Shown here: piece after piece, positions 5,774-25,206 of the stretch
Numbering within the stretch: position 1 is the first letter of the stretch
Layout: each line of letters starts with the position of its first letter
Assembly: GCA_028281925.1 (NCBI GenBank)
Contig: JANQIX010000036.1
Span: 1 to 64,000, forward strand
DNA length: 64,000 nucleotides
Source of the DNA: Alphaproteobacteria bacterium
GTDB taxonomy: Bacteria; Pseudomonadota; Alphaproteobacteria; DSM-16000; Inquilinaceae
Reading direction: 5' to 3'
Notes under the pieces: model-generated
Told to the model about the DNA's origin: nothing
Seen by the model: only the letters and a program-made list of their open reading frames with translations
Database searches by the model: none
Made by a program: the position numbers and the translations under genes

Positions 5774-6817
5774 ATGACGGCGGGACTGAGAGTCGGCGTG
5801 TTGGGGGCAAGCGGTTACACGGGAGCAGACGCGGTCCGCCTGCTGCTGCGCCATCCCGATTGCCGCCTGACCGTGCTGACGGCCGATCGCCACGCCGGCA
5901 AACCCATCGATGCGGTCTTTCCGCATCTCGCCGGGTTCGGACTGCCGGCCCTGACAACTGTCGACGATGCCGACTGGTCACAGGTGGATGTGGTGCTGTG
6001 CGGGCTGCCGCACGGCACGACGCAGGAGATCGTGGCGCGGCTGCCGGATCACCTGAAGGTGGTCGACCTCTCCGCCGATTTCCGGCTGCGCGACCCGGCG
6101 GTCTATGCCGAGTGGTATGGGCATGAGCACCGCGCGCTCGACCTGCAGGACGACGCCGTCTATGGGCTGACCGAATTTGCACGGGACCGGATCCGGCTGA
6201 CGCGGCTGGTGGCCTGTCCGGGCTGCTACCCGACGGCCGTGCTGCTGGCGCTGATCCCGATTGTCCGCGACCGGCTGGTAGATCCGGGTTCGATCACGAT
6301 GACGGCGCTCTCGGGTGTCAGTGGTGCGGGCAGGGGCCTGAAGGAAGCCAATCTGTTCTGCGAGGTGGGCGAGGGCACGCATGCCTACGGCATCGGCCGC
6401 CATCGCCATATGCCGGAGATCGAGCAGGAGCTGTCCGGCGTTGCGGGGGAACCGGTGACCATCAGCTTCACGCCGCATCTCCTGCCCATGAGCCGGGGGG
6501 AGCTGATCACCTCGCATTTCCGCCTGTCGCCTGGAACCACGGCCGACGACCTGCGGGCCGCTCTGGCGCGGCAGTACAGCGAGGAGCCGTTCGTCGATGT
6601 GGTGCCGGCCGGCGTGTCGCCGGCGACCAGCCATGTGCGCGGCAGCAATCGCTGCCTGATCGGCGTGTTTCCGGACCGCCGCGCGGGAGAGGCGGTGGTC
6701 ATTTCCGTCATCGACAATCTGGTCAAGGGTTCGTCCGGCCAGGCGATCCAGAACATGAACCTGATGTGCGGCCTGCCCGAGACCACGGGGCTGCAGCAGG
6801 TGGCGCTCTATCCGTGA
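5774..6817 (+). CDS. argC: N-acetyl-gamma-glutamyl-phosphate reductase
   Basis: Third enzyme of arginine synthesis, reducing N-acetylglutamyl phosphate with NADPH in the cytoplasm. It has 347 residues, normal for type 1 ArgC. The N-terminal nucleotide-binding motif is [17 protein letters not shown], the catalytic Cys lies in [12 protein letters not shown] near residue 147, and [11 protein letters not shown] and [16 protein letters not shown]-type C-terminal elements are present (here [16 protein letters not shown]). The start at 5774 gives the canonical N-terminus; the open frame continues upstream without a better start. A gamma carbonic anhydrase gene follows after 28 bases and is probably cotranscribed. 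Confidence 0.96.
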
Positions 6818-6845
6818 CCTGACCGTAGCCTAGGGGGATCGACCG

Positions 6846-7382
6846 ATGCCCGGCACCCTTCTGCCCTATCGCGGCGTGCTGCCTAAGATCGGACCGCGCG
6901 TCTTCATCGCGCCGACGGCGACCGTGATCGGCGACACCGAGATCGGCGAGCAGACCAATATCTGGTTCGGCTGCACAGTGCGCGGCGACGTGCATGAGAT
7001 CCGTATCGGCGCCCGCGTGAACCTGCAGGACGGCAGCGTCGTGCACGTCACCGGCGGGCGCTTCGGTACCTATATCGGCGATGATGTCACCATCGGCCAT
7101 ATGGCCCTGATCCATGCCTGCACGCTGGAGGCGGGGTGCTTCATCGGCATGAAGGCCTGCGTGATGGACGGCGCGGTGGTGGAAAGCGGCGCCATGGTTG
7201 CCGGCGGTGCCTTGGTGACGCCCGGCAAGCGCGTGCCGGCGGGCGAGCTCTGGGCCGGCAACCCGGCGAAGAAGATGCGCGATCTGTCGGAGGCGGAACG
7301 CGCCGGGCTGACCGACACCGTCGGCCGGTACGTCAGCCTGGCCGCGGATTACCTCGAGGCCGGAATCGGCATCGCAGGCTGA
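6846..7382 (+). CDS. Gamma-class carbonic anhydrase family protein
   Basis: Left-handed beta-helix hexapeptide-repeat protein, 178 residues, of the gamma-CA/YrdA family; trimers bind a metal between subunits. Visible features are the repeat stretch VIGDTEIGEQTNIWFGCTV, the segment RGDVHEIRIGARVNLQDGSV, and His residues in HVTGG, IGHMALIHAC. GGGxC-type metal His positions appear conserved. The C-terminal helix begins near residue 150 (EAERAGLTDTVGRYVSLA). Whether it is an active carbonic anhydrase or a scaffold (as in complex I-associated members) cannot be told. It follows argC by 28 bases. Confidence 0.9.
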   Translation: MPGTLLPYRGVLPKIGPRVFIAPTATVIGDTEIGEQTNIWFGCTVRGDVHEIRIGARVNLQDGSVVHVTGGRFGTYIGDDVTIGHMALIHACTLEAGCFIGMKACVMDGAVVESGAMVAGGALVTPGKRVPAGELWAGNPAKKMRDLSEAERAGLTDTVGRYVSLAADYLEAGIGIAG

Positions 7383-7398
7383 CGATTGCTTCGTCGGT

Positions 7399-7473
7399 CG
7401 GCATCGAGGCGAAAGCCGAGATCCGACGTCCTAAGGAGGCGATGTCGGGTTTCGGCTGCGCCTCAACGCCGAT
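7399..7473. terminator. Long imperfect inverted repeat between convergent genes
   Basis: A left arm at about 7399-7428 and a right arm at about 7445-7473 pair over roughly 28 bases with a few mismatches, around a 16-base loop. The arms carry GAGGCG, GCCGA and CCGAC blocks and their complements. It sits between the convergent gamma-CA and radical SAM genes, so it probably ends transcription in both directions. No T-run is present. Confidence 0.55.
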
Positions 7474-7493
7474 CTACAATCTCCATCGTCGCG

Positions 7494-8912
7494 CTACAGC
7501 CAGTCGAACTGCTTTGATTCGTTGGCCGCCTGGGCCATGCGGCGCTGGGAGACGTTCAGCACCCACGACGCGATGTTGGCCTTCGTCACCGGCAGCGGCA
7601 GCCGCCGCAGCATCGACGGCAGGGTGTAGAAGTCCCGGTACATCTTGCGCACCCGCGCCTCCATCTCCTCCGGCGTGCAATAGGGCGGGGTGATCGTGCA
7701 GTGGATTCCGGGCCCGCGCACCATCTCCATGGCGTCTATCACCTTGCCTTCCGCGCGCATCCGGTCATAGAGCGGCGTGCCCTTGTGGGGCCCGAGGATA
7801 TAGAAGTAGGCGACCGGCACCTTTTGCTGGTTCAGGAAGCCCAGCGTGTTCTCGAACACCGTCGGCTTCTCGCCTTCGAAGCCGAAGACGAAATTCAATG
7901 AATAGCTGATGCCGCGCCGGCGCAGGCCGCCCAGGATCGCGTCGTAATTCTCCACCTTGTTGAAGTTCTTGTTCATGTTGCCCAGGGTTTCCTGGTCGAC
8001 GCTCTCCATGCCCATGTTGACGTGCAACAGGCCGCTGCGGGCCGCCAAGTCCATGAACTCGTCATCGATGCAGAGATAGGTGGTCCAGAGCGTCGACCAG
8101 CGGATCTTCAGGGGGATCAGCGCCTCCATCAGTTCCATCGCCATCTGTTTCTTGCCGGCGAACATGCTGTCGGCGAAGAAGATGCTCTTGGCACCCGTGG
8201 CCTTGATCTCCTCCACCACTTCCTCGGCCGGGCGGTAGCGATAACGCGTGCCCACATAGAAGCGTTCGGAACAGAACTCGCACTTGAACGGACAGCCGCG
8301 GGAGTTCTGAACGGCATAAGTGCGCAGGCTCCGCAGCCCGCTCAATCTCGACAGGTCGTAGCGTGGCATGGGCAGGCCGACCAGGTCATGCAGTTCGTTG
8401 GCACGGTAGACCTTCTGCAGCCGGCCCGCCGCGGCATCTTCCAGCATCCGCACCCAGATGTGCTCAGCCTCGCCGATCCCCACGGCGTCGCAATGCGCGC
8501 CGGCTTCGTCAGAATGGAAATAGGTGTGGGGGCCGCCCATGAGGACGGGCACGCCGCGGTCGCGAAAACGCGCTGAGATCTCATAGGCGCGCAGGGAGTT
8601 GATGGTCCATGTCGAGATCGCGACCAGATCGACGGCGGCGTCGAAGTCGATGTCCTGGACCTGCTCGTCCAGCAGGGTGACGTCCCAGTCCGCCGGCGTC
8701 AGGGCCGCCAGATACGGCAACGTCAGCCCGACCAGCGACCGGCGCTTGGTCTTGTACAGCGGTCCATCCGGCGAGACCCGGTATGTCGGCTGGATGATCA
8801 GCAGCCGGTTCCTGAAACCGCTGCGGCGCGTGCGCACCGGCGGGCTCTGGACTTCGGCGGCATGACCGGACGTATCTTCAGTCGCAAAGCGGCGCGTCAG
8901 GTCTTCAAGCAT
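7494..8912 (-). CDS. B12-binding-domain radical SAM protein
   Basis: A 472-residue cytoplasmic radical SAM enzyme of the type with an N-terminal cobalamin-binding-like Rossmann domain (about residues 30-170, with LLDEQVQDIDFDAAVDLVAI and VLMGGPHTYFHSDE-like segments in split form) and a radical SAM domain starting at SRGCPFKCEFCSE (CxxxCxxC) near residue 205. Downstream are GAKSIFFADSMFAG and GMESVDQETL. The canonical B12 motif DxHxxG is not seen, so cobalamin binding is doubtful. The start at 8912 gives MLEDLTRRF; the frame is open upstream. No pathway neighbours identify the substrate; related proteins modify lipids or small molecules. Confidence 0.85.
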   Translation of the reverse strand: MLEDLTRRFATEDTSGHAAEVQSPPVRTRRSGFRNRLLIIQPTYRVSPDGPLYKTKRRSLVGLTLPYLAALTPADWDVTLLDEQVQDIDFDAAVDLVAISTWTINSLRAYEISARFRDRGVPVLMGGPHTYFHSDEAGAHCDAVGIGEAEHIWVRMLEDAAAGRLQKVYRANELHDLVGLPMPRYDLSRLSGLRSLRTYAVQNSRGCPFKCEFCSERFYVGTRYRYRPAEEVVEEIKATGAKSIFFADSMFAGKKQMAMELMEALIPLKIRWSTLWTTYLCIDDEFMDLAARSGLLHVNMGMESVDQETLGNMNKNFNKVENYDAILGGLRRRGISYSLNFVFGFEGEKPTVFENTLGFLNQQKVPVAYFYILGPHKGTPLYDRMRAEGKVIDAMEMVRGPGIHCTITPPYCTPEEMEARVRKMYRDFYTLPSMLRRLPLPVTKANIASWVLNVSQRRMAQAANESKQFDWL

Positions 8913-19437: not shown

Positions 19438-19737
19438 ATGTCGAGTGAAGGTCTGCACGCCCCCAGAGAGCGGCTCAGCCGCGAGACGATTTCCATGCAC
19501 CAGGCCATCACCTCGCTGATGGAGGAGCTGGAGGCCGTCGACTGGTACCGTCAGCGTGCCGACGACTGCGAAGACCCGGCGCTGAAAGAGATCCTGCTGC
19601 ACAACATGCGCGAGGAGATGGAGCACGCGGCCATGCTGCTGGAGTGGATCCGCCGTAACGACAACGACTTCGCGCACGAACTGAAGGACAACCTGTTCAA
19701 GGAAGGCGAAATCAGCGGGCAACACGGCCACGAATAG
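19438..19737 (+). CDS. Encapsulated-ferritin-like protein without targeting tail
   Basis: A 99-residue two-helix protein of the EncFtn family, an iron oxidase normally stored inside an encapsulin shell. By comparison with the Rhodospirillum rubrum protein as I recall it, MEELEAVDWY at residues 28-37 supplies Glu30 and Trp36, and REEMEHAAMLLEW supplies Glu60 and His63, so the dimer-interface ferroxidase ligands are present. The protein ends in GEISGQHGHE: there is no C-terminal encapsulin-targeting peptide, and no encapsulin gene lies nearby. A second His-rich ending could bind metal. A free-standing decameric iron-binding role is inferred. Confidence 0.88.
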   Translation: MSSEGLHAPRERLSRETISMHQAITSLMEELEAVDWYRQRADDCEDPALKEILLHNMREEMEHAAMLLEWIRRNDNDFAHELKDNLFKEGEISGQHGHE

Positions 19738-19789: not shown

Positions 19790-21619
19790 TCAGGCTGCCC
19801 GCTTCTTCACATAGCTGCCGGGCGCATCTTCGATCGGCTCAAGCTGTCCGCCGCCGGGCGGGCGCGCCGGAACGGGGGTGCCCCCGTCCTGGGCCGAGAT
19901 CCAGGATTGCCACTCCGGCCACCATGACCCTTCGGTCTTGTCGGCGAGCAGCAGCCACGCGTCAGGATCGTCCGGGGTCTTCTCGCTCGTCCAATAGCAG
20001 TACTTTTTATCGGGAGGCGGGTTGACGATGCCAGTCACATGACCGGAGGCGCCGAGGCAGAACCGCATCTTGCCGCCGGTCATCTGGGTCAGCGCATAGG
20101 TCGATTTCCACGGCGCGATATGGTCTTCCTTTGTCGAGACCATGAACCCCGGCACCGTTATCCTGCCCAGGTCGATGGGCACGCCGTCGACGGCGATGCC
20201 GCCCGGCCGCACCAGCTTGTTGTCCTGATAGAGATTGCGCAGATAGAAGCCGTGCATGGCCGTCGACACACGCATCGAGTCGCCGTTCCAGTGCAGCAGG
20301 TCGAGCGGGAACGTGTCCTTGCCCAGCAGGTAGTTGTTGACGACGAAAGACCAGATCAGGTCGTTGGCCCTGAGCATGCTGAAGGTTGCCGCCACTTCCG
20401 AGCCCGTGATGGACTGGGGCTCGGTGTTGGCCCGTCTGATCCGGCAGAGCTGTTCTTCGTCGATGAACACCCCCAGTTCGCCGGGCTCGGCGAAATCGGT
20501 CATCGTGGCCAGATAGGTGGCACTCTTGGCGCGATCGTCCCCCTTGGCCGCCATATAGGCGAGCGCGACCGCCAGCAGTGTGCCGCCGAGGGAATAGCCG
20601 AGCACATTCACTTCGCGTTCGCCCGTCGCCTGCTCGATCGCGCTGAGGGCCGCCATCGGTCCTTGCAGCATATAGTCGTCGAACGACACTGCCGCATGGG
20701 GGTCGTCGGGGTTCACCCATGAGATGACGAAGACCGTATGCCCCTGGCCGACGGCCCATTTGACGAAGCTGTTCCGCGGTCTGAGGTCGAGGATGTAGTA
20801 CTTGTTCGCCCACGGTGGGACGATCAGCAGCGGTCGGCGCGCGACGTTGGCCGTAGTGGAGTCGTACTGCAGAAGCTGCATCAGGTCGTTCTGATAGATG
20901 ACCTTGCCCCGTGTTGCCGCCAGATCGCGGCCGAGGGTGAATGCATCGTCGGGAAGCTGGCCGAACTGCAGGTGTCCGCCGCCCTTCTCCAGGTCCGACA
21001 GCAGATTCTCAAGGCCTCTCAGCAGGTTCTCGCCGCCGGTTTCGAAGGTCGTGCGCAGCACTTCGGGGTTGGTCATCACGAAGTTCGAGGGCGCCAGCGC
21101 GTCGACGAACTGCCGGGTGTAGAACTCCACCTTTTGCGCGGCTTCACCGTCCAGGCCGTCGACGTCGCGGATGGTCCACTGCATCCAGCGGGCCGTCAGC
21201 AGATAGGACTGCTTGATGAAATCGAATATGTGATTCTCGTCCCAGGCAGGGTCGCGGAACCGCCGGTCGTCCTGCGCGGGCTCGATCACCGGCTCCACCT
21301 CTTGGCCCAGCCAGCGCTGCGTCGCTCGCTGCCAGAGCGCCAGGTGGTCGTTCCAAAGGCTCATCTGCGCTTGCATCAGCCGCGCCGGATCGGCCATCAG
21401 GCGGCTCGTCATCTCCATGAAGGCATTGCCGACCGTCAGCGGGTCGAAGTTTCTCGCCTTGCCGAACTGTGCGGCCTGGCGCTGTAGGAACTCTGCGACC
21501 AACCGCTGACTGCGGGCGGCGATATCCGCCATGGCTTGGCCCATGGCGATGGGGTTGGGTATCTGCGCGTCAATCGTCGGCCTAACCCCATCCCTTTCGG
21601 GACCGGAATTCTCGGCCAT
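19790..21619 (-). CDS. phaC: Class I poly(3-hydroxyalkanoate) synthase with Ser nucleophile
   Basis: Polymerises hydroxyacyl-CoA into polyhydroxyalkanoate on granules in the cytoplasm. The 609-residue product has the class I N-terminal domain (DPLTVGNAFMEMTSRLMADP near residue 55) and an alpha/beta-hydrolase domain with RPLLIVPPWANKYYILDL. The lipase-like box reads GYSLGG, with Ser343 at the position of the catalytic Cys of typical PhaC. The other triad residues appear as KEDHIAPW (Asp) and GASGHVTG (His). No phaA, phaB or phasin gene lies beside it. Natural Ser variants may have lower or altered activity; the gene is otherwise intact. Confidence 0.93.
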   Translation of the reverse strand: MAENSGPERDGVRPTIDAQIPNPIAMGQAMADIAARSQRLVAEFLQRQAAQFGKARNFDPLTVGNAFMEMTSRLMADPARLMQAQMSLWNDHLALWQRATQRWLGQEVEPVIEPAQDDRRFRDPAWDENHIFDFIKQSYLLTARWMQWTIRDVDGLDGEAAQKVEFYTRQFVDALAPSNFVMTNPEVLRTTFETGGENLLRGLENLLSDLEKGGGHLQFGQLPDDAFTLGRDLAATRGKVIYQNDLMQLLQYDSTTANVARRPLLIVPPWANKYYILDLRPRNSFVKWAVGQGHTVFVISWVNPDDPHAAVSFDDYMLQGPMAALSAIEQATGEREVNVLGYSLGGTLLAVALAYMAAKGDDRAKSATYLATMTDFAEPGELGVFIDEEQLCRIRRANTEPQSITGSEVAATFSMLRANDLIWSFVVNNYLLGKDTFPLDLLHWNGDSMRVSTAMHGFYLRNLYQDNKLVRPGGIAVDGVPIDLGRITVPGFMVSTKEDHIAPWKSTYALTQMTGGKMRFCLGASGHVTGIVNPPPDKKYCYWTSEKTPDDPDAWLLLADKTEGSWWPEWQSWISAQDGGTPVPARPPGGGQLEPIEDAPGSYVKKRAA

Positions 21620-23892: not shown

Positions 23893-23982
23893 GGGCACTC
23901 TGCAGCCGGAACGGTCCGCCCGTGCCCCACGCAAATGCGGCGCGGCCGTTCTGCCGTAAATGCCCGCGAGGAGACAAATACT

Positions 23983-25206
23983 GTGATCGACCAGCAGTTT
24001 CACAAGGTGAAGCGTCTGCCCCCGTACGTGTTCGCTGAGGTCAACGCGATGAAGGCGCGGGCGCGGGCTGCCGGCGACGACATCATCGATTTCGGCATGG
24101 GCAATCCCGACAGCCCGACGCCCCGCCATATTGTCGACAAGCTGGTTGCTGCTGTGCAGGACCCGCGGACACACCGATACTCCAACTCGCGTGGCATTCC
24201 GGGCCTGCGTCGGGCACTGGCCGGGTACTACGAGCGGCGGTTCGGCGTCGGTCTCGATCCGGAAAGCGAGGTCGTTGCCGTCCTCGGCTCGAAGGAAGGT
24301 CTCGCCAATCTGGCGCAGGCGATCACCAGCCCGGGCGATATCATCCTGGCGCCGAACCCCAGCTATCCGATCCACATGTTCGGGTTCATCATCGCCGGCG
24401 CGGCGATCCGCAGCCTGCCGGCCCTCGCCGGCGAGGAGTTCATGCGCCAACTCGACCGGGCTTACCGGCACAGCGTGCCGAAGCCGACGGCACTGGTGCT
24501 CAACTACCCTGCCAATCCCACGACTCAGGTGGTGGAACTCGACTTCTACCGGGAAGTCGTCACCTATTGCCGGACGCACGGCATCTATGTGCTGTCCGAC
24601 ATCGCCTATTCTGAGATCTATTTCGACGAGCATCCGCCGCCATCGATCCTGCAGGTGCCAGAGGCGCGAGAGATCGCGGTGGAGTTCACCTCGCTCAGCA
24701 AGACCTATTCCATGCCGGGCTGGCGGATCGGCTTTGCGGCCGGCAATCGGCGGCTGATCGCGGCGCTGGCCAGGGTGAAGTCCTATCTGGACTATGGCGC
24801 GTTCACGCCGGTCCAGGTGGCGGCCGCGGCCGCCCTGAACGGCCCTCAGGACTGCGTGGAGGAGATCCGCGAGCTCTATCGCGGCCGCCGCGATGTGCTG
24901 GTGGAGGGGCTCAGGAGCTGCGGTTGGTGGGTTCCCAGTCCGCCGGCCACCATGTTCGCTTGGGCGCCCCTGCCGGAACAGTACGCCTCGCTGGGGTCGT
25001 TGGAGTTCAGCAAGCTGCTGTTGCGCCACGCCAAGGTGGCGGTGTCGCCGGGTGTGGGCTTCGGTGAGTACGGCGAGGGATACGTGCGGCTGGCGCTTGT
25101 GGAGAACCGACAGCGCACACGGCAAGCTATAAGGAATATCAAAGCGTTCCTGGGAAATTCTTCGATCGACGTTGAGCAGCCGGCGGGCGAACTGGTCACG
25201 CCATGA
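23983..25206 (+). CDS. PLP-dependent aminotransferase, AlaC/LL-DAP-aminotransferase type
   Basis: Class I/II fold aminotransferase, 407 residues, cytoplasmic. Motifs: FGMGNPDSPTPRHIVDKL near residue 30, LGSKEGLANLAQ near residue 100, NYPANPTTQV near residue 178, SDIAYSEIYFDE near residue 207 (PLP-ring Asp/Tyr), and the Schiff-base Lys in SLSKTYSMPGWRIGF near residue 240. The first gene of an operon with homoserine dehydrogenase, it is likely to make an amino acid of the aspartate or pyruvate family, such as alanine. The GTG start at 23983 follows GAGGAG; an upstream ATG frame lacks homology-like sequence. Confidence 0.9.
   Translation: MIDQQFHKVKRLPPYVFAEVNAMKARARAAGDDIIDFGMGNPDSPTPRHIVDKLVAAVQDPRTHRYSNSRGIPGLRRALAGYYERRFGVGLDPESEVVAVLGSKEGLANLAQAITSPGDIILAPNPSYPIHMFGFIIAGAAIRSLPALAGEEFMRQLDRAYRHSVPKPTALVLNYPANPTTQVVELDFYREVVTYCRTHGIYVLSDIAYSEIYFDEHPPPSILQVPEAREIAVEFTSLSKTYSMPGWRIGFAAGNRRLIAALARVKSYLDYGAFTPVQVAAAAALNGPQDCVEEIRELYRGRRDVLVEGLRSCGWWVPSPPATMFAWAPLPEQYASLGSLEFSKLLLRHAKVAVSPGVGFGEYGEGYVRLALVENRQRTRQAIRNIKAFLGNSSIDVEQPAGELVTP

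Follow-up and report, generated by a model that had tools for sequence, protein, structure and literature searches.

PHA synthases use cysteine at the position where lipases use serine, an old question that has been studied mainly with point mutants. The effect of a Cys-to-Ser change on PhaC activity is known from engineered enzymes, and the C. necator PhaC variant C319S has almost no activity. The engineered class II variant C296S of P. aeruginosa PhaC1 is reported to make a polyester, by the title of Amara and Rehm (2003) as cited in PMC2667194 and PMC5509742. Putative PhaC proteins with a GASAG box from Streptomyces (SCO7613, S. aureofaciens) have been claimed to carry serine in a lipase-box-like motif; the authors report that the other triad residues are missing around the box and suspect an indirect effect (PMC8313934).

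A PhaC-family gene with serine at the nucleophile position was located in the window, which is the whole stretch of 64,000 nucleotides of alphaproteobacterial DNA that was analysed (Table 1). The protein has the length, the PhaC_N domain, the alpha/beta-hydrolase core and the triad Asp and His of class I PhaC (TIGR01838; C. necator PhaC1, Chromobacterium sp. USM2 PhaC), and the gene has its neighbourhood in common with Cys orthologues, the nearest of which are 62-69% identical. It differs from class I PhaC at the Cys nucleophile and at the sites equal to C. necator N208, I247, P417, F420, T430 and A510. Serine also occupies the nucleophile position in engineered mutants such as P. aeruginosa PhaC1 C296S, but the protein described here is natural, is common to two species and has other catalytic-domain changes alongside. 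Unlike the Streptomyces GASAG proteins, it scores above the cutoff of the class I PhaC model and has retained both Asp and His. The GXSXG box and Ser-His-Asp triad are the same as in serine lipases and PHA depolymerases, whereas sequence and domain organisation place the protein with PhaC and not with the depolymerases. The open-access literature that was searched contained no account of a bona fide PhaC with a natural Ser nucleophile, and novelty is claimed within that literature. A retained natural Ser homologue with a short list of co-changes represents a ready-made test of the Cys/Ser question.

Family assignment and the serine codon

The open reading frame begins with ATG and encodes 609 amino acids. 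The protein passed the curated class I model TIGR01838 (726.7 bits, cutoff 622.65), contained both PF07167 PhaC_N (244 bits) and the PF00561 alpha/beta-hydrolase core, and matched the solved PhaC chains 9knj and 5t6o by alignment. The class III model TIGR01836 was failed (116.3 bits, cutoff 365.3), and no PhaE partner adjoins the gene, PhaE being encoded on another contig next to a real class III PhaC. TIGR01849, the intracellular PHB depolymerase PhaZ, was absent from the NCBIfam matches of the protein. The predicted structure retained the PhaC fold in its core, with TM values of 0.82-0.87 normalised to solved PhaC catalytic-domain structures; pLDDT was mostly >90 around the nucleophile elbow, and the N-terminal and lid parts were of low confidence. 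By sequence and fold the protein groups with class I PhaC. The box containing Ser343 reads NVLGYSLGGTLL (GYSLGG), and because the Cys nucleophile of a GXCXG box is replaced, the protein is for now to be named a class I PhaC-family protein and not a PHA synthase.

Table 1. Features of the phaC locus, with positions in the window
Feature	Position	Strand	Remarks
Class I PhaC-family gene, Ser at nucleophile position	19790..21619	-	TIGR01838, PF07167, solved-chain matches
Codon TCC, Ser343, nucleophile elbow	20591..20593	-	Cys in 107/107 other homologues
Asp499 (KEDH), triad acid	20123..20125	-	C. necator D480 by alignment
His527 (SGH), triad base	20039..20041	-	C. necator H508 by alignment
Ala271 (sister species Val)	20807..20809	-	Ile in 107/107 others; C. 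necator I247, Chromobacterium Ile219
Leu439	20303..20305	-	Phe in 107/107 others; C. necator F420
Met449	20273..20275	-	Thr in 107/107 others; C. necator T430 by alignment
Thr529	20033..20035	-	Ala in 107/107 others; C. necator A510, Chromobacterium A479
Encapsulated-ferritin-like gene	19438..19737	+	PF22277 EncFtn-like
Proline/alanine-rich ORF, 661 aa	21907..23892	+	
Aminotransferase (PRK09148 family)	23935..25206	+	Conserved phaC neighbour in relatives; rate control

A first-pass annotation of this DNA had described a PHA synthase-family reading frame with Ser343 encoded by TCC and with the Asp and His of the triad retained. The reading frame and codon were as described, and wherever a homologue extends over these positions it has Asp opposite Asp499 (114 loci) and His opposite His527 (112 loci). 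TCC is one base away from TGC, the codon of most relatives, and a sequence error had been named as the outcome that would undo the reading. The sister species, the one other available for the genus (G001; 93% amino acid identity), has the same TCC at the nucleophile position, and as the two Ser genes have diverged at dS ~0.36, a shared sequencing error is excluded; a sequence or assembly error is, on this evidence, scarcely credible. The independent Ser genes number two and not three, as the coordinates of the Ser gene on JANQQD010000320.1 (L034) identify it as the G001 gene already counted.

Alignment with the PhaC proteins of relatives, which had been proposed as a check, gave Cys at the nucleophile position in all 107 other class I homologues (>50% identity; codons TGC or TGT), with Ser only in the two species of the genus. 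A pattern scan of 385 genomes of the class yielded seven matches to G[YF]S[LIVMF]GGT, of which this gene was the sole PhaC, the DNA patterns having allowed TCN or AGY serine and passing over boxes that depart from the motif. The six other matches were rejected as Ser PhaCs, having no PhaC similarity; by eye, two fall in thioesterase domains of large synthetases, one in an oxoglutarate dehydrogenase E1-like protein and one in a permease-like protein, and the remaining two are chance frames.

Three cysteines were considered as substitute nucleophiles. Both Ser species have Cys392, a residue seldom found in the other homologues, but its position is where the lid region begins; Cys521 and Cys541 are present in many Cys enzymes too. 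None of the three is an obvious replacement.

Co-changed sites and evolutionary rate

The Cys-to-Ser change is not an isolated point change, as eight other near-invariant sites have changed along with it. Nine sites are changed in both Ser proteins (232, 271, 343, 402, 414, 436, 439, 449 and 529), those besides 343 being catalytic-domain positions of 99-100% conservation. Deviations were counted at sites where at least 99% of the other homologues agree. The two Ser proteins deviated at 11/96 and 9/96 such sites in the catalytic domain, where the 102 other homologues averaged 0.46 deviations and reached at most 6; in the N-terminal part the Ser proteins deviated at 0/29 conserved sites. The next-highest count, 6/88 conserved catalytic-domain sites, belongs to a Cys PhaC at 6001-7788 of JAOUCL010000113.1 (L112).

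Positions 271, 439 and 529 were mapped to C. necator via alignment to the solved chains, with Cys319 and His508 as anchors. In the Chromobacterium PhaC structure Ile219, equal to position 271, contributes to the lining of the active-site cavity on both sides, and A479T, a change identical to that at position 529 of the Ser protein, raised 3HHx incorporation ~2.8-fold (PMC5509742). F420, the counterpart of position 439, is reported as a conserved residue of both class I and class II enzymes, with higher activity in the F420S variant (PMC6403647). A529T and F439L fall at sites whose alteration raised activity or widened the substrate range, as would be expected if the protein were a working PHA synthase of the genus with Ser as its nucleophile and the other substitutions compensating. 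The protein is also full length, constrained and over the class I cutoff, and the engineered class II C296S enzyme is, by the title of its report, a polyester maker. However, Cys is invariant in the homologues, two Cys synthases are present, the change on the stem was accelerated and C. necator C319S retains hardly any activity, which together make a working Ser synthase improbable.

In a tree of 104 PhaC sequences the Ser pair was nested in the PhaC clade of its own family, with modest support (0.74) for the exact sister; this placement indicates a vertical orthologue. No internal branch of the tree was longer than that of the pair (0.358, compared with a median of 0.045), and its root-to-tip distance exceeded all others among the 104. 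Among 34 loci with both genes, the Ser PhaC ranked 2/34 and the neighbouring aminotransferase 32/34 in root-to-tip distance. As the neighbour is not accelerated, the acceleration belongs to the Ser phaC gene.

The dN/dS between the two Ser genes was 0.106, a value that spans the time since the split of the two species and not the stem branch; the other chromosomal genes measured gave 0.03-0.19, with PhaC2 at 0.115 and MoxR at 0.088. The Ser protein is kept under purifying selection, which suggests that it has retained some job. The redundant synthases and the loss of conserved residues could be taken as signs of a decaying gene heading for loss, but the reading frame is intact in two species and its dN/dS is like that of PhaC2 and MoxR, and decay is considered very improbable.

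The differences between the two Ser proteins were distributed as 2/206 positions in the N-terminal part and 41/381 in the catalytic part, and the C/N ratio of dN was 8.9, the highest among the canonical pairs compared being 3.98. This contrast within the pair was not significant (Fisher p = 0.07), with an odds ratio of 3.92 that is close to the 3.67 of one canonical pair, and dS was also lower in the N-terminal part; the contrast is suggestive. A C/N ratio above that of every canonical pair, and conserved sites left untouched in the N-terminal part alone, would be in keeping with a protein that has lost catalysis and is kept for binding, either at the granule surface or with a Cys PhaC, as its dimer or regulatory partner. 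Against such a role stand the statistics of the contrast itself, a catalytic-part dN/dS that is still 0.117, the retained Asp and His, and the fact that the new residue, Ser, is a nucleophile. Loss of catalysis is rated as unlikely, though it is the strongest competitor of the explanation favoured below.

Other PHA genes and the possible role of the Ser protein

A second, normal phaC doing the work elsewhere in the genome had been foreseen as a point against the first reading, and such genes were found. Contig C71 encodes a second, class I-like PhaC with Cys (GYCLGG; TIGR01838 504.5 bits, under the cutoff), and contig C19 a class III PhaC with Cys (GICQGG; 421.9 bits, over the cutoff) next to genes for PhaE and a thiolase-domain protein. 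On contig C64 PhaR adjoins a PhaC-like protein with GYCMGG, and the genome has two phasins. Since Cys synthases are encoded on C71 and C19, ordinary PHA synthesis need not depend on the Ser protein, which is probably not the main synthase. The earlier view of a natural Ser PhaC differing from the usual enzyme is thus upheld by its presence in two species and by the eight co-changes, but is tempered by the Cys synthases elsewhere in the genome. A second PhaC copy in another genome (G011:C9:13797-15326) has one in-frame TGA and is perhaps a pseudogene.

The depolymerase model TIGR01849 had no match anywhere in the genome, and the Ser protein was considered as a replacement for the absent PhaZ. 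This was rejected, as 13/17 genomes of the family also have no TIGR01849 match, most of them with a Cys PhaC, and the absence is therefore not specific to the Ser genome.

In a comparison with 61 relatives, PhaE and an above-cutoff class III PhaC were confined to this genus. With a dN/dS of 0.010, the latter was the most constrained gene of the measured set. Contamination was rejected as the source of the class III operon, which matches the genome in GC and GC3 and is syntenic in the sister species. Between species the class III phaE-phaC genes (contig C19 of this genome, G000; loci L003 and L153) had a dS of 0.11-0.16, compared with 0.25-0.45 in other genes, which may reflect strong codon bias or later exchange. 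It may be hypothesised that the arrival of the class III operon released constraint on the Ser protein; the co-occurrence of the two is one evolutionary event and carries no statistical weight. Rhizobium and Sinorhizobium plasmids carry class III phaC as well, so having a class III synthase alone does not produce a Ser enzyme.

The vertically inherited class I PhaC of the family acquired the Cys-to-Ser change and the eight other changes on the branch to one genus. The explanation favoured here, tentatively, is that it was repurposed as a serine enzyme, either an acyltransferase or a hydrolase, whose altered pocket would accept hydroxyacyl-CoA or PHA chains. Bulk polymer would probably be made by the Cys synthases of the genus, the class I-like PhaC and the class III PhaE-PhaC, and the Ser protein would use its Ser-His-Asp triad in lipase-like chemistry. 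Its acyl-enzyme would be an oxyester in place of a thioester, and it would hence be slow or poor at chain elongation. We infer both this division of labour and the chemistry of the Ser protein. The enzyme reading is supported by the retention of Asp and His and by the replacement of the nucleophile with the residue that lipases use there, although a loss of polymerase function would also leave changes at invariant sites. It is possible but doubtful that a natural PHA-synthase scaffold now serves a new function as a serine enzyme, such as a PHA chain hydrolase, a chain-transfer enzyme or a hydroxyacyl-CoA thioesterase; if true, nature would here have reversed the Ser/Cys difference between lipases and PHA synthases.

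Genes adjoining phaC

The encapsulated-ferritin-like gene lies directly tail-to-tail with phaC, with no encapsulin reading frame adjoining; its TIGR04535 score was 108.9 bits, under the cutoff of 125, and among 80 phaC loci only that of the sister species has the same placement. The 661-amino-acid reading frame had no Pfam or NCBIfam match and was present at just 2/80 phaC loci of relatives. The title Anaerolineae bacterium of the record JANQQD010000320.1 looks wrong, as the genes in this record share 93-97% identity with genes of the window's alphaproteobacterial genome.
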